Source: Planctomycetota bacterium
GTDB taxonomy: Bacteria; Planctomycetota; Planctomycetia; Pirellulales; Pirellulaceae
Direction: 5' to 3'
Assembly: GCA_027619595.1 (NCBI GenBank)
Contig: JAQCHP010000041.1
Location: forward strand, 1-36,463
DNA length: 36,463 bases
Each line of letters begins with the position of its first letter. Position 1 is the first letter of the stretch. Below, in pieces: positions 474-36,270 of the stretch. Both the position numbers and the translations under genes were made by a program. The notes beneath the pieces are model-generated. The model ran no database searches, was not told where the DNA came from, and was given only the letters and a program-made list of their open reading frames with translations.

Positions 474-480
474 TTACTTG
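416..480. repeat. Two adjacent short tandem duplications
   Basis: A 16-base unit (AACAGTTTCACTGGAC) occurs twice at 416-431 and 432-447 with one mismatch. After three bases, a 15-base unit (AATTACCTTTACTTG) occurs twice at 451-465 and 466-480, also with one mismatch. The second copy of the 15-base unit contains the stop codon of the minus-strand gene ending at 474. The pattern fits local slippage duplication; no function is evident. Confidence 0.75.
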
Positions 481-1712
481 GCTACAGGCTGGATCGACGG
501 ATGCCTGAACACGTCGCGCAGATCAGCCTCGTATACTTGCCCAGTAGAATCTGAAGCGAGAACGATCCAGGGAGCAGTGGGGGGAAATGCATGCCGCGGT
601 CCAGTCACATTGTTGACCGATTGGTCCCCAACAATCACGTCAACCTGAGGTGCGGCCAGATCAAGTTGCTCGACGGTCATCGAGATACCAACAATCTTGC
701 TGGTTGTTCCGGCTGTCGACCTTTGGGCAACGGTATGTAGCAAGAACAGCTGCTCGGGGTTTCCTCCGATGACCGCAATCGGTCGCGTGGGTGAACTGGT
801 GGCTGTTAGTGTCGCGTAACCGTGATTCGCCCAGGTACCATCGGCCTGTCGAACCCTTAGAATGTGCTGGGGCTGATCAATTTGATCGAGCGAATTCTTG
901 GAGGCGACAAACAAGGTGCCGCGTTGGTCGACAGCGCAGCGAAGATGATCGTCCGCGTTTGCATCTCCTCGCTGAATATCAACAGGGTTCGTCCAATACT
1001 CCGAGGCAGAGCCGAGGAGATGTTCGCGAGCTACAACCGCCGCTTGCTTTTGATTGCTCCATATGACGCCAACTCGGTCTGCCAAGGCGTACAGACTGCA
1101 GATATCGTCGGGCGCGATTTCGTTTGCTAGTGTAATGGGTTTACTCCAGCTCATCCCCATTGGATCCGTGGTCCACTTGACATAAATGCATCGTCCTCGG
1201 TCATAGGCTATCCACCATCGTCCCTGGTTATCTTGGCAAATGGTTGCCGTCTCGAGAGATTCATCGCGGCTGGCGCTGCGGTCATGTTGGACAGGGGTCG
1301 TCCATTGGGATTCAACGCGCAGCTTTCCGGGCTGGTACGTCCGGTCGACCGAATCGTAGACTAGATCCGCAGTAGCCAACCGATCATCGCCGACCAGTAC
1401 GGCTCGCACGGAATCGGCCGCTGGCCACACATCTGCCAGTCCGGGCAGTCCTTTCAAGTGCTCATCTAAGTGGTTCAGGCGTATCCAACCAGCTGAGTTT
1501 CTTGCATAAACCGAGGAGCCACCGGGAGTGGGAAGCCAGGCCCACCACTGCTCGTGCGCGAACCACAGCTTGCACTGCGGTTTATCTTGTGTCGCAGCCT
1601 CAACACCCGTGCGAATAACCGGCTGTGCGCCTGAGCACTCGGCCTGTAAACAGACAAACATGCCGACAAAGAAGCTCAAGCATGCCGGCGAGAAATTTCT
1701 TAAGAGCTTCAT
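474..1712 (-). CDS. Secreted hypothetical protein, beta-propeller-like
   Basis: The 412-residue product starts with a typical signal peptide: basic MKLLRNF, a hydrophobic stretch to about residue 24, and a likely cut near CSGA/QP. The rest is rich in Trp, Asp and Gly and repeats a pattern of short strands such as GRWWIAYDRGRCIYVKW and RVGVIWSNQ, which suggests a sialidase- or WD-like propeller in the periplasm or outside the cell. I do not recognise a family and see no catalytic motif. A GAGG sequence lies about 10 bases before the ATG. The gene stands alone. Its start is only about 50 bases from the left end of a decayed insertion sequence, so its promoter may have been displaced or replaced by the element. 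The reading frame is intact. Confidence 0.7.
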   Translation of the reverse strand: MKLLRNFSPACLSFFVGMFVCLQAECSGAQPVIRTGVEAATQDKPQCKLWFAHEQWWAWLPTPGGSSVYARNSAGWIRLNHLDEHLKGLPGLADVWPAADSVRAVLVGDDRLATADLVYDSVDRTYQPGKLRVESQWTTPVQHDRSASRDESLETATICQDNQGRWWIAYDRGRCIYVKWTTDPMGMSWSKPITLANEIAPDDICSLYALADRVGVIWSNQKQAAVVAREHLLGSASEYWTNPVDIQRGDANADDHLRCAVDQRGTLFVASKNSLDQIDQPQHILRVRQADGTWANHGYATLTATSSPTRPIAVIGGNPEQLFLLHTVAQRSTAGTTSKIVGISMTVEQLDLAAPQVDVIVGDQSVNNVTGPRHAFPPTAPWIVLASDSTGQVYEADLRDVFRHPSIQPVAK

Positions 1713-7544: not shown

Positions 7545-9428
7545 GTGTTATTGCCATTGACGGTGTCGGCGGAAAGCCAAGCTGTTCCGACGCCCGGTTA
7601 TCACGGTCGGTATCTCTGGGTCGACCTGACGTCAGCAACTGCGGAGTTGCGTTCGATTTCGGCACGCGATCTGCGGCGTTTCTTAGGTGGCAGTGGTTTG
7701 GCGACGTATTTGCTGCTCTACCATGGTGGAGCGAATTGTGGGCCAACTGACGCCGAATCGCCGCTCGTGTTTTCTTATAGTCCGCTGGTCGGTAGCCCTC
7801 TGACGACTTCCGCCAAATTTGCCGTTGTCAGCCGCAGTCCACTGACGGGAATGATCAACGATTCACTGGTAAGCAGTGCATTCGCGTTGGCGGGCAAGCG
7901 GGTGGGCGTCGATGCCATGGTGATCACAGGTCGTTGCGAGACTGCGCACTATCTTCTGGTGGATGGTCTGCGTTGTGAAGTTCGCTCGGCAGCCATGTTG
8001 CGTGGTCGAAGTTGCCGTGACACGGAACAAGCGTTGCGGAAGGAGCTTGGCAATGAATTCCAGTTGGCTGTGATTGGGCCAGCAGGTGAAAACGGCGTTC
8101 GCTATGCCACCATTTCGCACGATGGCAGGCACGCTGGTCGCGGTGGCAATGGAGCCGTCATGGGGAGCAAAAACCTCAAGGCCATCGCCGTGCGGGGAGA
8201 TCAGCGCGTCGCCTGGGCTCACCCACTTGAACTGCAGTTGGCTGCCAAAGAACTGTCACGTCGTTCCTTCGGTTCGTCCACGTCCAAGTATCGTGAGTTA
8301 GGTACCGCAGCGAATTTGTCGGTGCTCAACCGTCTGAAAGCACTCCCTACGCGTAACTTTCAACAAGGGGAGTTTGCCGAGGCTGAACAGATGGATCCGG
8401 TTCAATTGGCCCAGGACTACCACCATACCCGGTCAAGTTGTGCCGCCTGCACCATTGGTTGTGAGCATATGTATCAACCCACTTCGTCAACTCAAGGAAT
8501 ATCCGGGCAACCGGTACGTGTCGAGTACGAGAACCTGTTTGCCCTTGGTCCTTTGTGTGGTATTCACGACGTTGATGCCGTATTGCGAGCCTCCCAGCTA
8601 TGCGACGACATGGGAATCGACACGATTAGCACGGGTGGTACGGTGGCATTTGCGATGGAATGCGTGGAACGCGGTTGGTTGACGACGGCGCCTTGGTTGC
8701 GGTTTGGAGACAGTCATGCGTTATTGCGTGCGATCGAACTGATAGGCCGGAGGGAGGGAGTGGGGGTCGAGTTGGGCCTGGGGAGTCGCGCGTTTTCCGT
8801 GCTCTTGGGTCCCCAAGCGGAATCCATTGCGCCACACGTAAAAGGGCTCGAATTGCCGGGGTACGAACCGCGTGCGGCGCAGGCGATGGCCGTCGGATTC
8901 GCCGTGGGGACGCGTGGGGCGGACCACAATCGCAGCGGTGCCTATCAGGTCGACTTTTCGGAAGCGGTCGACCGATACCATTTGCGGACTGAAGATGTGC
9001 ACCATCTTCTCGAAACTGAAGACCAAGCGGCTCTTTTCGATAGCGTGATTTTTTGTAAGTTCCTCCGGGGGGTTTTTGCGGATCTCTTTCAGGACGTCGC
9101 TGAGTACTTGCGTCTTGTCACTGGCTGGGAAGTAACCAGCGAAGAGTTGCGCTGTACGGCACGTCGCATTGTTACCTTGAAGAAAATGTTCAACGTTCGA
9201 GCGGGTTGGGTGCCGTCCGATGACACACTTCCTGAGCGGATGTTGCAGCAGTCGCCAATCGGCAATCCCCAGGCCAGGATTACCTCCGTACAATTGCAGG
9301 ATCTTGTACGAGCCTACAACCTTGCTCGGGGGTGGACGGCGGAAGGATGGGTACCCAGCGATACCCTACGTCCGTTGGATTTGTTGGATCTCGTAGGCGA
9401 TCCCTCGACCGTGCCACAATCGTCATGA
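7545..9428 (+). CDS. aor: Aldehyde:ferredoxin oxidoreductase (W/Mo pterin enzyme)
   Basis: The 627-residue product spans the whole family (about 600 residues). It shows the N-terminal domain (YLWVDLTSATAELR, FLGGSGLATYLL), the glycine-rich segment GRHAGRGGNGAVMGSKNLKA near 195-213, and EYENLFALGPLCG near 328-339. Four Cys are placed as in the Pyrococcus enzyme to bind a 4Fe-4S cluster: C299, C302 and C306 in SCAACTIGC, and C504 in DSVIFC. Known members oxidise aldehydes to acids with tungsten-bispterin and ferredoxin. The start is GTG with AGAGG six bases upstream. It follows a MoaD-like gene, and a chromate-type oxyanion transporter gene begins about 100 bases later. No ferredoxin or electron-transfer subunit is adjacent. 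The true substrate and metal cannot be read from sequence; other AOR subfamilies of unknown function exist. Confidence 0.88.
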   Translation: MLLPLTVSAESQAVPTPGYHGRYLWVDLTSATAELRSISARDLRRFLGGSGLATYLLLYHGGANCGPTDAESPLVFSYSPLVGSPLTTSAKFAVVSRSPLTGMINDSLVSSAFALAGKRVGVDAMVITGRCETAHYLLVDGLRCEVRSAAMLRGRSCRDTEQALRKELGNEFQLAVIGPAGENGVRYATISHDGRHAGRGGNGAVMGSKNLKAIAVRGDQRVAWAHPLELQLAAKELSRRSFGSSTSKYRELGTAANLSVLNRLKALPTRNFQQGEFAEAEQMDPVQLAQDYHHTRSSCAACTIGCEHMYQPTSSTQGISGQPVRVEYENLFALGPLCGIHDVDAVLRASQLCDDMGIDTISTGGTVAFAMECVERGWLTTAPWLRFGDSHALLRAIELIGRREGVGVELGLGSRAFSVLLGPQAESIAPHVKGLELPGYEPRAAQAMAVGFAVGTRGADHNRSGAYQVDFSEAVDRYHLRTEDVHHLLETEDQAALFDSVIFCKFLRGVFADLFQDVAEYLRLVTGWEVTSEELRCTARRIVTLKKMFNVRAGWVPSDDTLPERMLQQSPIGNPQARITSVQLQDLVRAYNLARGWTAEGWVPSDTLRPLDLLDLVGDPSTVPQSS

Positions 9429-9529
9429 TTCCCCGATTCTGAGTTATAGTTGGTGGGAGGCCTTGGGCGTCCTGAAGTCTGGTCGCCCCCGCCACAAGTA
9501 CCGCGATCTTGCTGGAAAGTGAAGAATTC

Positions 9530-10921
9530 ATGGACGGTAGTGACGGACCGATGTCGGATAGGATCTCCCGCGTTTCACTTCGCGACGCCTTCTGGACGTG
9601 GTGTCGGGTCGCAGCTTTGAGTTTTGGCGGGCCTGCCGGACAGATTGCGGTGATGCACCGAATTCTTGTGGATGAGAAAAAGTGGATTGACGAGCGACGA
9701 TTTTTGCACGCCTTGAACTTTTGTATGTTGCTCCCCGGGCCCGAGGCTCAGCAGTTGGCGACGTACATAGGATGGCTCATGCATCGTACGCTCGGTGGGC
9801 TCATGGCTGGACTACTTTTTATTCTGCCTGGATTCGTGACCATACTGGCGCTCAGCATCGTTTATGCCACGTGGCACGAAACGAACTTCGTGCAGGCCAT
9901 TTTTTTTGGCCTGAAACCGGCGGTGATGGCGATCGTATTGGATGCGGTTCGACGGATTGGCGGAAAGGTACTAAAGAGCCGCACGATGTTCGTCTTAGCC
10001 GCACTTTCGTTTGTGGCAGTTTTTGTGTTTCACTTGCCGTTTCCTTTGTTAATTCTTGCGGCTGGAGCTATCGGATTTGCGGGAGGGTTTATTGCTCCCG
10101 GACAGTTTTTGATACACGCTACACACGGGGTGGGAAATTCTAATTCCGATCTCGGAATCTCGGATAAATATCCAGTCCTCCGCGATGAAGTTCCATCGTA
10201 CTTCCGGAGTCTGGTCATCCTTGTTGCGGGGCTAGTTGTCTGGTTCGCTCCGGTCGTCGCCGTAATTGTACTGTTTGGTGAGTCATCAATTTTTGTTCGT
10301 GAAGCTTTGCTCTTCAGTCAAGCGGCCGTGGTAACCTTTGGAGGTGCCTATTCGGTTTTGGTCTATATTGCGCAACAATCGGTCGAAAAATTTGGCTGGT
10401 TGCAGCCTGGCGAGATGCTTGATGGTTTGGGGATGGCGGAAACAACTCCCGGTCCGCTGATCATGGTCGTTCAGTTTGTGGGCTTCTTAGCCGCCTATAG
10501 GCATCCGGGGCAGCTGAGACCGTTGGTCGCGGGGATCCTGGGATCCGTACTGACGACCTGGGTTACATTTGTGCCCTGTTTCTTATGGATTTTCCTCGGC
10601 GCTCCCTACGTCGAAAGATTACGCGCGAATCGACGCTTGAGTGCAGCATTATCCGCCATCACCGCGTCGGTCGTGGGTGTTATCCTCAACCTTGCCCTTT
10701 GGTTTAGTGTACATACACTGTTCCACAGTGTTGGTGAGACGTCGGTGTTGGGAGGGGCCGTACTAACCCCGAACTTGGAAACGATCGACTTGTGCGGAGT
10801 GGCCGTGGCGGGATTGGCTCTTGTGATGACGTTTTGGTGGAAATGCGGAATGTTGACAACGATGAGCACATCCGCGCTGGTGGGAATCGTGCTGTTTTTC
10901 GCTCGACGGGCATTCGGGTAG
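9530..10921 (+). CDS. chrA: Two-domain chromate transporter
   Basis: The product has about 463 residues and around ten hydrophobic segments. It contains two CHR domains. The first has SFGGPAGQIAVMH and LLPGPEAQQLATYIGW; the second has VVTFGGAYSVLVYIAQQ and GMAETTPGPLIMVVQFVG. This matches the long-chain ChrA form, an inner-membrane protein that exports chromate and may handle related oxyanions. I prefer the ATG at 9530; a TTG at 9509 and an ATG at 9551 are also possible because the conserved part begins only at SLRDAF. It follows the aldehyde oxidoreductase by about 100 bases, same strand. Whether it moves chromate, tungstate or another anion here is unknown. Confidence 0.9.
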   Translation: MDGSDGPMSDRISRVSLRDAFWTWCRVAALSFGGPAGQIAVMHRILVDEKKWIDERRFLHALNFCMLLPGPEAQQLATYIGWLMHRTLGGLMAGLLFILPGFVTILALSIVYATWHETNFVQAIFFGLKPAVMAIVLDAVRRIGGKVLKSRTMFVLAALSFVAVFVFHLPFPLLILAAGAIGFAGGFIAPGQFLIHATHGVGNSNSDLGISDKYPVLRDEVPSYFRSLVILVAGLVVWFAPVVAVIVLFGESSIFVREALLFSQAAVVTFGGAYSVLVYIAQQSVEKFGWLQPGEMLDGLGMAETTPGPLIMVVQFVGFLAAYRHPGQLRPLVAGILGSVLTTWVTFVPCFLWIFLGAPYVERLRANRRLSAALSAITASVVGVILNLALWFSVHTLFHSVGETSVLGGAVLTPNLETIDLCGVAVAGLALVMTFWWKCGMLTTMSTSALVGIVLFFARRAFG

Positions 10922-25624: not shown

Positions 25625-25672
25625 GGCATGGGTGCGGTTCGTGGCATGGGTGCGGTTCTCGGCATGGGTGCG
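25625..25672 (+). repeat. Triple 18-base repeat at a gene start
   Basis: GGCATGGGTGCGGTTC followed by two variable bases is repeated at 25625-25642 and 25643-25660, with a third partial copy at 25661-25672. The period equals six codons, so each copy offers an in-frame ATG (25628, 25646, 25664) to the metallopeptidase-like gene. AGAGG at 25615-25619 favours the first ATG. Copy-number change by slippage would keep the frame. Confidence 0.85.
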
Positions 25673-27043
25673 CGGGTGAATCTTGCCAATCTGTCGGGCA
25701 CGAAGCTACAACATGGGGCAATTGCGTTGGGCATCCTGATTGCGCTGAATTCGTGCTCTTCGCACGTAGTATTCGCACAATCGGACGACACCACGTCCGC
25801 CCGGAAAAAGCCGAGTCAAGAAACGTTGCGTGCCTATCGGATCCGGGTTGTCGAAGGGGACAATCTAACTCTGTTTACCGATCATCCACCCAATGAGGAG
25901 ATCAACAGTCTGCCGGTCCTATTTACTCAGGCGCTGCCTGGTTGGAGGGAATACTTTGGTTGTGCGCATGTGCCGATTGCCGCGTGGCACATGCGCGGTT
26001 ACTTGATGCAAGATCCAGAGCGATTTCGACAGGCAGGGTTGCTGCCGCCAGACCTGCCACCCTTCCTGCACGGCTATCAACGGCAGGACGAATTTTGGCT
26101 ATATGACCAGCCCAGTGATTACTACCGACGTCACCTCGTCCTTCACGAAGGAACGCATGGATTCGCTCATCGGGTCGGTGCCGAACCGCTGGATCCTTGG
26201 CTGAGAGAGGGAATCGCCGAGCGTTTAGCCACGCATTTATGGGACCAACAAGAATTAGTGTTGCGATGGTTTCCGTCCCATAGAGATCAAGTGCCGCATT
26301 GGGGACGAATCAAGATCATTCAGGACGAGATCGCTCAGCAAAGATATCTTTCGCTTCGAGAGGTGGTCACGCTCCCCGAAATCGCTTTCCGTCGGAACGA
26401 GGGGTACGCTTGGTCGTGGGCGGCCGTGATGTTCTTCGAACTTCATCCGGCCACCGCTAAGGTTTTCTTGAAATGGCGTGAGTCGCTCACGTCTTCGCGT
26501 GGCACGCTGAACACGTTCGCGGGTAGGGTAAGCGGAATGGACGCGGAGTTAGAAGACGACTGGTATCTCTTTGTACGAGAGTTGCGTTACGGGAAAGAAT
26601 TCACCCCCTTGACGATTTCTGACCACAAGCTTCCACCGCAGGATCTAGCCGACGCGGGGATCGCACTCCAGGTCGATGCGCGGCTGGGCTGGCAAAACAC
26701 AGGGGTACGACTACTTGCCAATCGTTCCTATCAAATTCAAGCCGAAGGACGGTATGTGGTAGCCACGGAGCCTCGCCCATGGTGGACAGAACCCGGAGGC
26801 GTTACCATCGACTACGTGGGCGGGAGACCGCTCGGCCAGCTCCTGGCGGCCGTAGCGCCCGTGGAACCAGGTCGACGTGGACCTTCTCTGGCGGATCCCG
26901 CTGGTGTCGGTTCGTCAGGCGTGGTACGTCCGACCAAGGGCGGCGTCCTTTTCTTGCGCGTCAACGACCGAGCTGGCGATTTGCGAGACAACGAAGGGAC
27001 GCTTCGGGTCACCGTTACGAACGGTCCGGGCCGTCGTCCCTAA
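25628..27043 (+). CDS. Secreted metallopeptidase-like protein with lectin-like tail
   Basis: The 471-residue product has a repeat start (MGAVRGMGAVLGMGA), a hydrophobic export signal about residues 28-48, and a cut near VFA/QS; LNSC could instead be a lipobox. The core has the zinc motif HEGTH (H173-H177) followed by WLREGIAERLATH, where a Glu would be the third ligand, as in gluzincin (peptidase MA-like) families. The C-terminal 140 residues (VRLLANRSYQIQAEGRYVV, then LFLRVNDRAGDLRDNEGTL) resemble the PA-IL-like galactose-binding lectin fold, whose Asn/Asp residues bind calcium and sugar. It probably cuts proteins or glycoproteins outside the inner membrane; substrate unknown. It stands between the helicase and glyA genes with no evident operon partner. 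Confidence 0.75.
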   Translation: MGAVRGMGAVLGMGARVNLANLSGTKLQHGAIALGILIALNSCSSHVVFAQSDDTTSARKKPSQETLRAYRIRVVEGDNLTLFTDHPPNEEINSLPVLFTQALPGWREYFGCAHVPIAAWHMRGYLMQDPERFRQAGLLPPDLPPFLHGYQRQDEFWLYDQPSDYYRRHLVLHEGTHGFAHRVGAEPLDPWLREGIAERLATHLWDQQELVLRWFPSHRDQVPHWGRIKIIQDEIAQQRYLSLREVVTLPEIAFRRNEGYAWSWAAVMFFELHPATAKVFLKWRESLTSSRGTLNTFAGRVSGMDAELEDDWYLFVRELRYGKEFTPLTISDHKLPPQDLADAGIALQVDARLGWQNTGVRLLANRSYQIQAEGRYVVATEPRPWWTEPGGVTIDYVGGRPLGQLLAAVAPVEPGRRGPSLADPAGVGSSGVVRPTKGGVLFLRVNDRAGDLRDNEGTLRVTVTNGPGRRP

Positions 27044-32882: not shown

Positions 32883-34199
32883 ATGTCAAACCTTTTTGAA
32901 TCGATTGAAAACGACCATCGCCTGCAAGCCCAGCCGCTGGCAGCTCGGATTCGTCCACGTTCGTTGCAAGAATTTGTTGGGCAATCACACTTCCTGGGTG
33001 AGGGACGCCTACTGCGGCGACTCATTCGTGCGGATCGGTTGGGATCGCTGATTTTTTATGGACCACCCGGTACTGGCAAAACGACATTGGCTCAACTGTT
33101 GGCACAAGAAACAAAGTCGAAGTATTGCACGTTGAATGCCATATCAAGTGGCGTCAAAGAACTGCGATCTGCGCTCGAGTTGGCGGACAACGAACTAGCT
33201 GCCCAGGGGCGCCGCACGCTGCTGTTTATCGACGAAATTCACCGTTTCAATCGATCGCAGCAGGATGCACTCTTGGAACACGTAGAAAACGGTGTGGTGT
33301 CATTGGTCGGCGCCACGACCGCAAATCCATTTTTCGCTCTCAATAGTGCGTTAACCAGTCGAAGCACGATTTTTCAATTTGAACCACTTAACGCGGACGA
33401 AATTGAGCAATTACTATTACGCGCGCTTTCGGATCGTCAGCGTGGCTTGGGGCACTATGACGTGCAACTCAGGCCGGACGCACTCCAAGCGCTGGTGGAT
33501 GCCTGCGACGGAGACGCGCGTCGGGCCCTAGGTGCACTCGAAGTTGGCGTGCTGTCTAGCCAATCGCAGCCGATTGTCTTTGATTTGGCTCTGGCTCGGG
33601 AATCGATCCAACGCAAAGCGATCGAGTACGATGCGACAGGAGACTCCCATTACGACTGTGCGAGTGCCTTCATCAAGAGCATCCGAGGAAGTGATGCGGA
33701 TGCTGGGCTCTATTGGCTGGCACGTATGTTAGAAGGGGGGGAAGATGTCCGCTTTATTGCTCGTCGTTTGGTGATATTGGCCAGTGAAGATATTGGAAAT
33801 GCAGATCCTCAGGCGTTGCAAATCGCCGTGGCGGGGATGCAAGCATGCGAATTTGTTGGACTCCCAGAATGTCAGCTGACGCTGTCGCAACTTGTCACCT
33901 ACCTAGCGTGTGCCCCGAAATCGAATGCTGCCACTGTGGCGATTGAGGCAGCCCGGCGCGACGTGCGCGAGGGCACGGTGCAGCCGGTACCAAGGCACCT
34001 CAAAGATCGCCATTATTCCGGAGCGGTCCAACTGGGACATGGGGATGGTTACCACTACTCGCACGAAGCGCCTGATGGCATCGGGGTGCAGGATTACCTG
34101 AGCGTACCAAAACAGTACTATCAGCCAACAGATCGGGGGTTCGAACAAGAATTGCAAGTTCGGCTGCAGGCGATCCGCCGGGCTCGATCGGGTGAATAG
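32883..34199 (+). CDS. rarA: Replication-associated recombination protein A (AAA+ ATPase)
   Basis: The 438-residue product matches RarA/MgsA, the bacterial WRNIP1-like clamp-loader-related ATPase. It has PLAARIRPRSLQEFVGQ at the start, Walker A GPPGTGKTT (60-68), Walker B LLFIDEIHRF (about 114-122), sensor GATTANP and SRSTIF after TSR. The C-terminal tetramerisation part has RMLEGGEDVRFIARRL, SEDIGNADPQAL and PKSNAATVAIEAA. It acts at stalled replication forks in the cytosol. The ATG is preceded by AGGA about 10 bases away. It stands alone behind a long intergenic region. Confidence 0.95.
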   Translation: MSNLFESIENDHRLQAQPLAARIRPRSLQEFVGQSHFLGEGRLLRRLIRADRLGSLIFYGPPGTGKTTLAQLLAQETKSKYCTLNAISSGVKELRSALELADNELAAQGRRTLLFIDEIHRFNRSQQDALLEHVENGVVSLVGATTANPFFALNSALTSRSTIFQFEPLNADEIEQLLLRALSDRQRGLGHYDVQLRPDALQALVDACDGDARRALGALEVGVLSSQSQPIVFDLALARESIQRKAIEYDATGDSHYDCASAFIKSIRGSDADAGLYWLARMLEGGEDVRFIARRLVILASEDIGNADPQALQIAVAGMQACEFVGLPECQLTLSQLVTYLACAPKSNAATVAIEAARRDVREGTVQPVPRHLKDRHYSGAVQLGHGDGYHYSHEAPDGIGVQDYLSVPKQYYQPTDRGFEQELQVRLQAIRRARSGE

Positions 34200-34382
34200 T
34201 CCCTGGACCGGTGCCGGCAGGTGGTAGGGGAGACAGGATTCCGATTGGGCCGACTGCTGTCAGATTCACTCTTTCCTTGCCGGCGTCGATTCTGTACCAT
34301 CCACGCGTCAAGTTCGCCAAACTCGTCACGCCGTGTGACGCAGCGAATGCGAATTCTTGTATCCAGCAAGGAGGCTGGAGCC

Positions 34383-35675
34383 ATGAATGCGATCAAGAAC
34401 GCATTGGTGACAACGACCCTTGTGGCCGTCGGGTATGGCGTTTATGTCATCCTAGCGAGCCCGAGTCCGGCACCTCCCAATTCCGCCGCACCGCCATCCC
34501 CGGCGTGGGGAATCGTTGAAGGGCATGTTCCGGCCACTGCGGCAAGTCCATTGAGCGATAATTCCTGGCAAGAGATCCAGCCACCGCAGCTTTCGGTGCA
34601 AATGGAGTCGCCGAAGACGGAAGTGGCAGTGAGTCGATCGGCTCTTGTACCGGCGCCTTTCCCTGTGCCGGCACCCTTAACAAACTCGGTCCCCACAGCT
34701 GAGCCAACGTTGCCGTCGGTGGCGGAGAATCCTCCGAATTTAACAAACGGAGTCTCCGACCCCTACCTGAATGCGCAACGAACTGCACTCGCGGAGCGAA
34801 CGACAACAACAGACAGTCAGGTGCAATCGAAGCTAGCGGACGCTCCGGTTTCGCTCGAGGGAGGCAATTTCGCGTCGCTCGCCGCACCATCGGCTGCCTT
34901 AGCAGAACCTTCTCCCGTGGTTCCCGCGACCGTTGCCGTTCCAGCCGAAAGCCTTGCCAGCGGCAGTCCCTTCGATTCGGCCTGGCAAACAGCACAGCGA
35001 CAACTTCAACAGGGCAAAATTGCCGATTCGCTCTTTACGCTTTCCATCTGGTATCAGGATCTAAGATTCACGGAAGAGCAAAGGGTGCAGTGCCTCAAGC
35101 TGCTCGACGAATTGGCGGCGGATGTTATCTATTCACGTGAGCACCATCTGCAACCAGCTTATATCGTGCGGTCGGGCGAGACGATGGAGACAATCGCGAC
35201 TCAATTCCAAGTACCGAGTCAATTTTTGGCCCGAGTGAATGGAATCGAACCCCCGTTTCAACTCGTAGATGGTGAGTCGATTAAGGTCGTGCAAGGTCCG
35301 TTCCGCGCGGAGATCGATATCCGTCGGCGAGAAATGACGCTCTTCGTTGGAAGCTACTATGCCGGTCGAGTTCCAATTGAGTTAGGCCAAGACGCGACGG
35401 TCACCGCCGGTGAGTTTGAAATTGTCAATGCGACGATCGACCCGCCGTACGAGCATCCCGAGTCTCGCGAACAGATTGCCGGTGCAGATCCGCGGAATCC
35501 GTACGGCCGTTTTTGGCTTGGATTGACGGCTCCCGAAGGCCAAAAATGGGGAATTCACGGATCGCCCGCTGGGGTCTCGGGTGACGATACCCGGGGTTCG
35601 ATTCGACTCTCCTCCCACGACGTGGACAACGTACAGGCTATTCTCTCGCTGGGCTCAGCGGTTATTATTCGCTGA
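34383..35675 (+). CDS. LysM/YkuD envelope protein lacking the catalytic Cys
   Basis: The 430-residue product has a short cytosolic start, one membrane helix about residues 6-25 and a long Pro/Ala/Ser-rich linker to about residue 195. A LysM domain follows (AYIVRSGETMETIATQF to about 303) and then a YkuD L,D-transpeptidase-like fold at 308-430. The fold ends in GIHGSPAGVSGDDTRGSIRL. In active enzymes the last motif is S/T-H-G-C-I/V-R; here it reads T-R-G-S-I-R, so the nucleophile Cys is Ser406 and the preceding His is Arg404, while H392 of the HGS motif remains. It may be inactive and only bind peptidoglycan. The ATG at 34383 has GGAGG about 10 bases upstream, so I prefer it to the longer frame from 34221. 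pyrE follows 43 bases later. Confidence 0.85.
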   Translation: MNAIKNALVTTTLVAVGYGVYVILASPSPAPPNSAAPPSPAWGIVEGHVPATAASPLSDNSWQEIQPPQLSVQMESPKTEVAVSRSALVPAPFPVPAPLTNSVPTAEPTLPSVAENPPNLTNGVSDPYLNAQRTALAERTTTTDSQVQSKLADAPVSLEGGNFASLAAPSAALAEPSPVVPATVAVPAESLASGSPFDSAWQTAQRQLQQGKIADSLFTLSIWYQDLRFTEEQRVQCLKLLDELAADVIYSREHHLQPAYIVRSGETMETIATQFQVPSQFLARVNGIEPPFQLVDGESIKVVQGPFRAEIDIRRREMTLFVGSYYAGRVPIELGQDATVTAGEFEIVNATIDPPYEHPESREQIAGADPRNPYGRFWLGLTAPEGQKWGIHGSPAGVSGDDTRGSIRLSSHDVDNVQAILSLGSAVIIR

Positions 35676-35718: not shown

Positions 35719-36270
35719 GTGTACGACCGACAAGCTTTGCAGGCAAGGATTCGGGAAAAAGCGTTGAAATTCGGGACGTTCACCTTGGCTTCGGGACGTA
35801 CCGCCAGCTATTACTTGGATTGCCGGCAAGTCACGTTGGATGGGCGGGCGGCAAACCTTATTGCTGAGGGTTTGATCGAAGCGATGCAGGCCGATTGGCC
35901 CGATGCTGTGGGAGGAATGGCGATCGGAGCCGACCCCATCACCGCGGCCGTAATCACTCGTGCTAGCCAGATTGGCCACGATCTTCGTGGCTTTATCGTG
36001 CGCAAAGAATCAAAGCAGCACGGTCGTCAGCAAATGGTGGAAGGTCCCGTTCAACAGGGAGATCGAGTGATCATCTTGGAAGACGTCGTCACTACGGGAG
36101 GCAGTGCGCTCCTGGCCATCGAACATGCTGAATCGCATGGATTGAAGGTGATCGGCGTGATGGCGGTTGTGGATCGATTGGAAGGAGGGCGTGAGGCTTT
36201 TGCCGCACGCGGCTACCCGCTCCAGACATTGTTCACGGTTAGTGATTTTGGCGTGCAAGACGTCAAGTAG
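35719..36270 (+). CDS. pyrE: Orotate phosphoribosyltransferase
   Basis: The 183-residue product has the PyrE pattern: FGTFTLASGRTASYYLDCRQ (substrate loop), AVGGMAIGADPITAAV, RGFIVRKESKQHGRQQMVEG (catalytic loop with Lys and His) and VIILEDVVTTGGSAL (PRPP-binding). It joins orotate and PRPP to make OMP in pyrimidine synthesis. The start is GTG, with AGGGGG about 7 bases upstream. No other pyr gene is in the window. The next gene starts 24 bases on, so they may be cotranscribed. Confidence 0.95.
   Translation: MYDRQALQARIREKALKFGTFTLASGRTASYYLDCRQVTLDGRAANLIAEGLIEAMQADWPDAVGGMAIGADPITAAVITRASQIGHDLRGFIVRKESKQHGRQQMVEGPVQQGDRVIILEDVVTTGGSALLAIEHAESHGLKVIGVMAVVDRLEGGREAFAARGYPLQTLFTVSDFGVQDVK

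Follow-up and report, generated by a model that had tools for sequence, protein, structure and literature searches.

A LysM/YkuD protein of a Pirellulaceae bacterium with serine in place of the catalytic cysteine: a probable retained pseudoenzyme in an order with apparently recurrent cysteine loss

Results and Discussion

Gene and domain layout

The window, i.e. the whole stretch of 36,463 nucleotides that was analyzed (contig JAQCHP010000041.1 of a Pirellulaceae bacterium), carries near its end a gene for a protein of 430 residues. Its features and its two neighbours are as follows, all on the forward strand.

32883 to 34199, +: upstream neighbour, RarA/MgsA-type AAA ATPase (PF12002, 218 bits)
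34368 to 34374, +: ribosome-binding site AAGGAGG, 8 nt 5' of the ATG (read from the sequence)
34383 to 35675, +: gene of the LysM/YkuD protein, 430 residues, ATG start
34398 to 34457, +: N-terminal hydrophobic helix, residues ~6-25, putative signal anchor judged from the sequence
34461 to 34970, +: linker rich in Pro, Ala, Ser and Thr, residues 27-196, 54% of which are these four letters
34971 to 35126, +: three-helix domain, residues 197-248 (AlphaFold2 model, pLDDT of ten-residue blocks 94-98)
35160 to 35282, +: LysM domain, residues 260-300 (PF01476, 28.8 bits, cut-off 20.9)
35295 to 35672, +: YkuD domain, residues 305-430 (PF03734, match at residues 308-429)
35556 to 35558, +: His392, the retained catalytic histidine (aligned with the histidine of YkuD and of the outgroup)
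35598 to 35600, +: Ser406 (TCG) at the catalytic-cysteine position (sequence and orthologue alignment)
35719 to 36270, +: downstream neighbour pyrE, orotate phosphoribosyltransferase (TIGR00336, 140 bits)

The YkuD domain was matched by PF03734 with 25.0 bits (cut-off 23.4) and with 28.3 bits in the genome-wide search; NCBIfam gave matches to the LysM region of the protein only, all of them below cut-off. An AlphaFold2 model of residues 197-430, calculated with 45 of the 80 similarity-found loci as input, reached a mean pLDDT of 94.3 and a pTM of 0.89. Its YkuD part superimposes on Bacillus subtilis YkuD (4a1i) with Z 14.1 and an rmsd of 2.4 Å over 105 residues in a VIA-align comparison that covered mainly model residues 109-234, and the YkuD fold of the window protein is thus predicted to be intact. 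Several positions of the three-helix domain are conserved across all three orthologue classes of the order, and to a lesser degree in the outgroup. With a loose regular expression, an N-terminal pattern related to that of the window protein was picked up in 77 of the 169 orthologue frames, a number of these matches being false. A promoter scan yielded 0 matches with 0.7 expected, and 5 terminator-like sites were observed with 1.5 expected. Elsewhere in the window, an aldehyde ferredoxin oxidoreductase gene followed by a gene of the chromate transporter family was found at 7545-10921(+), and two further frames, 25628-27043(+) with 471 residues and 474-1712(-) with 412 residues, are without a Pfam match at E 0.001.

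The active site

The motif of the window protein reads W-G-I-H-G-S ... D-T-R-G-S-I-R-L. The catalytic cysteine of the (S/T)xGC motif is absent, and the sole cysteine of the protein, residue 237, lies outside the YkuD domain. The first-pass annotation, which had reported serine in place of the catalytic cysteine with the fold and the other histidine kept, is thereby borne out on both points: PF03734 is above its cut-off, the model is confident and His392 aligns. It had furthermore regarded the residue in front of the G-S pair as altered, since the histidine of the SHGC form is an arginine here. This part did not hold. YkuD of B. subtilis itself has S-K-G-C, and the 18 outgroup rows read S-[R/K]-G-C in 16 cases, S-E-G-C in one and T-Q-G-C in one, so that a histidine before G-C does not discriminate. 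Judged from these sequences, only the exchange of Cys for Ser is unusual in the window motif, the arginine being normal for the lineage.

An extra cysteine two residues before the catalytic histidine (C-I-H-G) was observed in 20 of the 56 Cys-bearing rows of the order and in 0 of the 111 Cys-less rows; it could form a disulfide or a metal site with the catalytic cysteine, or could reflect kinship.

Distribution of the catalytic cysteine among orthologues

In the following, L denotes loci (rows of the alignments) and G genomes, while f and g are codes for families and genera. An orthologue was found in 58 of 60 genomes, and a profile search across the order recovered it from 141 of 146, both figures including the window's own genome; internal stops were absent among the matches listed in the latter search. 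Alignment A1 excludes L001, L047 and L060-L062. L047 and L144 are contig ends with gaps at the active site and were, together with the fragment L202, excluded from the trees and the conservation counts.

Across the order, 167 of 169 rows could be scored at the cysteine column: 56 carry Cys and 111 another residue, most often Ser (45 of the 111), followed by Val (13), Thr (12), Arg (10), Ala (8), Gly (6), His (4), Leu (3) and others. Histidine and cysteine occur together in 56 rows, histidine alone in 43, neither in 68 (70 of 169 when the two gap rows are included), and cysteine without histidine in 0. The outgroup, family f21 of the same class (L075-L092), has both residues in 18 of 18 rows. 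Among 80 named loci found by similarity, from Pirellulaceae, Pirellula, Rhodopirellula, Rubripirellula and other planctomycetes, 74 have His and Cys, three Ser, two Ala and one Trp; this sample was found with patterns from mostly Cys-bearing rows and is not a frequency estimate. Cys-bearing orthologues are thus common among the similarity-found relatives, and many orthologues may still be enzymes.

Whether the serine is conserved, as the first-pass annotation proposed to check, depends on the group. In a clade of three genera (g18, g61 and g20) it is found in 11 of 11 rows with an invariant histidine, but across the order in only 45 of 167. Orthologues elsewhere that keep the histidine have Thr, Tyr, Phe, Trp, Met, Ala or Val at this site, and L175 and L170, which belong to one genus, differ in having Ser versus Thr.

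Recurrent loss on the tree

A tree of 184 rows, built without the active-site columns by a quick method with SH-aLRT support only, requires at least 13 changes for the cysteine and 9 for the histidine. For 70 rows hand-picked from these 184, analyzed with bootstrap and SH-aLRT, 12 changes were obtained for the cysteine; here the bootstrap was not fully settled and the backbone is largely open. Placing all 36 Cys-less rows of the 70-row set in one clade costs 180 units of log-likelihood (p-AU ~4e-76), and a single origin of the cysteine loss was consequently rejected on this subset. The change counts give no direction, and loss rather than gain was deduced from the outgroup and the type enzyme. 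Taken together, the alignments and trees suggest that the catalytic cysteine was independently lost many times in the order. The clade of g18, g61 and g20 is placed differently in the two trees.

In the 70-row tree the window row pairs with L003, a row that retains the cysteine, with a support of 98/95 and inside a mostly Cys-bearing clade. The loss in the window is therefore most simply its own, and it looks recent.

Further YkuD copies and neighbouring genes

The first-pass annotation had suggested a search for active paralogues. In the window genome no second match to PF03734 was found, and an active YkuD paralogue was accordingly discarded. A scan of genome contigs with the full protein gave no relative. 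The same situation prevails among the relatives. In the set of 60 genomes, 45 have a PF03734 match, each exactly one and at the orthologue's place, and in the set of 146 the orthologue is the sole YkuD in 62 of the 67 genomes with matches (both compared by eye). Additional YkuD matches occur in G499, G507, G520, G531 and G550, where that of G531 may be a fragment. In G499, G507 and G550 the orthologue is without the motif and YkuD matches are located elsewhere, three of them in G550. A second helical-LysM match is carried by all 11 genomes of g18, g61 and g20, and also by a few others such as G464, G474 and G521. At L060:986-2560(+) and L061:648-2270(-), LysM proteins were observed that have no YkuD and show instead a weak DUF11-like match below cut-off.

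Synteny was tested for pyrE and rarA in sets of 58, 85 and 80 loci, omitting L063-L074 and L093-L121. Among loci with room, pyrE follows on the same strand in 27 of 48, 31 of 82 and 37 of 75, respectively; rarA precedes on the same strand in 11, 13 and 7 loci of these sets. With such partial linkage a tight conserved operon was rejected, and the linkage serves as support for orthology only.

Peptidoglycan synthesis genes

In the window genome neither a penicillin-binding protein (PF00905) nor GT51 was found, and no SEDS match exceeded its cut-off. PF00905 has matches in 9 of 60 genomes and in 30 of 146 genomes of the order. A comparison of the tables revealed that the 8 of 60 genomes with SEDS over cut-off are the PF00905 genomes minus G034; GT51 was detected in 1 of 60 genomes, namely G034, which shows 9% contamination. 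The middle domain of Mur ligases has two matches in the window genome, one of which is FolC (TIGR01499, 347 bits), pointing to at most one Mur ligase besides FolC. Four to seven such matches were counted in the nine PF00905 genomes; of 49 scored genomes without PF00905, 46 have one to four and three have five or six. MurB, in contrast to these absences, is present in 60 of 60 genomes, and the copy of the window genome reaches TIGR00179. It adjoins (L287:2711-4676(-)) a gene without Pfam match, which we take to be FtsQ-like, although most of the other peptidoglycan genes looked for appear to be missing.

With a completeness of 96.4% for the window genome, an individual absence could reflect a gap, yet the same absences recur across most of the family, and peptidoglycan synthesis seems for the most part to have disappeared from this genome. 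PMC12283558 reports that lipid II genes were lost in Pirellulales, with which these results agree, as they do with PMC8567305. Against the picture of gene loss stands biochemical work in which MurNAc, GlcNAc and DAP were detected in Rhodopirellula baltica (PMC4432640), and a full murA-murF set in one planctomycete (PMC12288469) indicates that the precursor genes were not lost phylum-wide. Of 27 scored rows from genomes with a PF00905 match, 9 retain the cysteine, versus 47 of 140 rows from genomes without one. A backup by penicillin-binding proteins as the reason for the cysteine loss was rejected for want of any association; retention does not track their presence, and the loss is not simply backed by them.

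Pocket conservation and selection

The residues lining the pocket behave differently in the two kinds of Cys-less rows. In the 43 rows that keep only the histidine, N372, P373, G375 and G405 equal the active consensus in 84, 86, 98 and 98%, respectively; in 67 His-less rows these values fall to 10, 28, 39 and 34%. Fold positions, in contrast, are nearly invariant even in the His-less rows: G109, P110 and G132 with 100%, A131 with 99%, F134 and L225 with 97% (model numbering, to which 196 is added for protein numbering, so that N176 is N372 and A131 and G132 are A327 and G328). All these percentages count related rows and not independent events. In these alignments, pocket decay is mostly confined to the His-less rows, and the window protein belongs to the His-only type with a mostly intact pocket. 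A profile comparison (hhalign) of the YkuD parts of 64 His-less rows with the active outgroup gave a probability of 99.7%, which is a consistency check only since the rows came from one alignment; the long deviant rows L204-L206 were excluded.

For the YkuD part, dN/dS amounts to 0.04-0.18 in 15 pairs of the Ser-bearing g18 and g61, to 0.04-0.39 across all 25 His-only pairs, to 0.007-0.33 in Cys-bearing pairs including the outgroup, and to 0.07-0.68 in pairs without His and Cys. It is highest in f8, the most decayed family, where selection is weaker (about 0.1-0.7). In all measurable Cys-less pairs it stays below 1 (0.04-0.68). These ratios are rough, dS lying close to 1 or higher in many of the pairs, and they were derived from relatives, the window lineage being without a close pair.

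Such values bear on the alternative that the gene became redundant after peptidoglycan synthesis was lost and has since decayed slowly and neutrally, its YkuD domain having no present function. The peptidoglycan genes are indeed largely missing in most of the 60 genomes, as PMC12283558 reports for Pirellulales, histidine and pocket have collapsed in 67 rows, and one clade reaches a dN/dS of 0.68. Against neutrality speak the presence of the gene in 141 of 146 genomes, the matches listed being free of internal stops, the near-invariance of fold positions in the His-less rows and a dN/dS of 0.04-0.18 in the 15 Ser-bearing pairs, and we consider this explanation unlikely.

Somewhat less probable still is a serine enzyme, in which Ser406 and His392 would form a nucleophile pair acting on peptidoglycan or on another ester or amide substrate. 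The first-pass annotation had offered such a serine-based variant as one possibility. The invariance of both residues in 11 of 11 rows of g18, g61 and g20, the low dN/dS in two of these genera and the mostly intact pocket would suit it, and a YafK-type protein of the YkuD superfamily displays serine-dependent turnover of beta-lactams (PMC13400389). However, the serine in question is Ser132, away from the cysteine position Cys174 (PMC13400389). The site is moreover filled by seven other residues in further His-keeping orthologues, it changes between Ser and Thr within one genus, and an engineered Cys-to-Ser enzyme, LdtMt2 C354S, is described in PMC11410929 as giving no product on four fragments. 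The proposal is therefore disfavoured.

Alternatively, the protein could be a regulatory or substrate-presenting subunit for envelope modification, with the chemistry residing in a partner enzyme. A mostly intact pocket with a lost nucleophile would fit substrate presentation, but the window genome has no other YkuD match, and the neighbours tested for synteny, pyrE and rarA, are not envelope enzymes; we regard this as quite improbable. That the enzyme is otherwise active and suffered a local mutation or a sequencing error, which the first-pass annotation would have read from close orthologues all having Cys, is very improbable: the sister L003 does keep Cys, as do 35 of the 51 rows in f1, the family of the window genome, but losses recur order-wide with Cys absent from 111 of 167 rows, and TCG is two substitutions away from both cysteine codons (TGC and TGT), so that a single read error from Cys cannot explain Ser406, and a read error or point event alone was rejected on codon and recurrence.

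Interpretation

The window protein is probably a retained pseudoenzyme, a LysM-bearing binding or scaffold protein of the envelope that has outlived peptidoglycan cross-linking. At the family level the suggestion of a pseudoenzyme made in the first-pass annotation is well supported by the frequent absence of Cys, its repeated loss and the dN/dS of the Cys-less pairs. The sequences establish the serine, a fold predicted to be intact, the near-universal retention of the gene in the order, the repeated loss of the cysteine, the rule that cysteine never stands without histidine, a pocket decay found mostly in His-less rows, dN/dS below 1 in Cys-less relatives, and a window genome without matches to a further YkuD, a penicillin-binding protein, GT51 or SEDS. 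We infer from them that the protein is periplasmic, is inactive as a transpeptidase, binds a ligand and has a structural or tethering role.

The protein would descend from a LysM-YkuD L,D-transpeptidase. Anchored at its N-terminus and extended by the flexible linker, it would have its helical, LysM and YkuD domains in the periplasm, where LysM could hold a polymer containing N-acetylglucosamine. Lacking the cysteine, the YkuD domain would not form the usual thioester and may act as a binding or protein-contact module; LysM and the pocket might hold a GlcNAc polymer or a peptide, while the surfaces of the helical and YkuD domains contact another component of the envelope. Since the usual thioester requires the cysteine, and since LdtMt2 C354S gave no product from the four fragments tested yet was crystallised with substrate, binding without reaction is most likely for the window protein. 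Retention extends to orthologues whose pocket is ruined, which makes scaffolding a more likely kept function than peptide binding. The further suggestion that the protein binds or organises peptidoglycan stands in part: both LysM and the pocket are still present, but most of the synthesis of that polymer seems to be gone from the genome. The retention of LysM and of the substrate pocket would be odd if no peptidoglycan is made.

As a more speculative extension, which we hold to be possible but rather doubtful, planctomycetes that abandoned peptidoglycan cross-linking may have kept one LysM-YkuD enzyme nearly everywhere, turned into a non-catalytic structural protein belonging to another kind of wall. 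The active site would have been switched off about a dozen times independently and then eroded stepwise with the fold preserved, and YkuD would now serve for binding or as a scaffold in an envelope not made of peptidoglycan (e.g. planctomycete cell-wall proteins or another GlcNAc polymer). How the planctomycete envelope coheres after the loss of peptidoglycan genes is debated, with the chemistry of PMC4432640 on one side and the gene loss of PMC12283558 on the other. A near-universal descendant of a cross-linking enzyme that is repeatedly Cys-less and yet kept offers a direct handle on this question. Furthermore, active orthologues, Cys-less orthologues with an intact pocket and pocket-less orthologues constitute a natural series for studying the path from enzyme to scaffold.

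Comparison with known systems

A description of the family or of its recurrent cysteine loss was not found among the matches listed in a search of the open full-text literature by titles and beginnings of abstracts, subscription literature lying mostly outside its reach, and the word "planctomycete" is absent from the L,D-transpeptidase review PMC12729407.

B. subtilis YkuD (4a1i, 1y7m) is the closest solved protein by sequence (phmmer E 4.3e-9, residues 240-430) and, as 4a1i, also the best fold match. Like the window protein it has LysM before YkuD and an aligned catalytic histidine; the window protein differs in having Ser for Cys, a hydrophobic helix, a long linker and an extra helical domain. 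The outgroup homologues of f21 match nearly the whole helical-LysM-YkuD profile and have pyrE downstream on the same strand in 7 of 18 cases, but unlike the window protein they all retain His and Cys in an S/T-x-G-C motif.

Another relation exists to the YafK/DpaA and Lpg1514 branch, in which the YkuD-superfamily fold carries out chemistry other than transpeptidation. Unlike the window protein, Lpg1514 retains its cysteine, and its functional serine is at another site (PMC13400389).

The same Cys-to-Ser exchange, at the equivalent place and in the same fold, is known from LdtMt2 C354S (8pxy) and LdtFm C442S (2hkl). LdtMt2 C354S, for which PMC11410929 reports no product from four peptidoglycan fragments, was crystallised with bound substrate; one of the four, a pentapeptide, is not a substrate of wild-type LdtMt2 either. 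Both of these are laboratory mutants, whereas the exchange in the window protein is natural and part of a repeated pattern.
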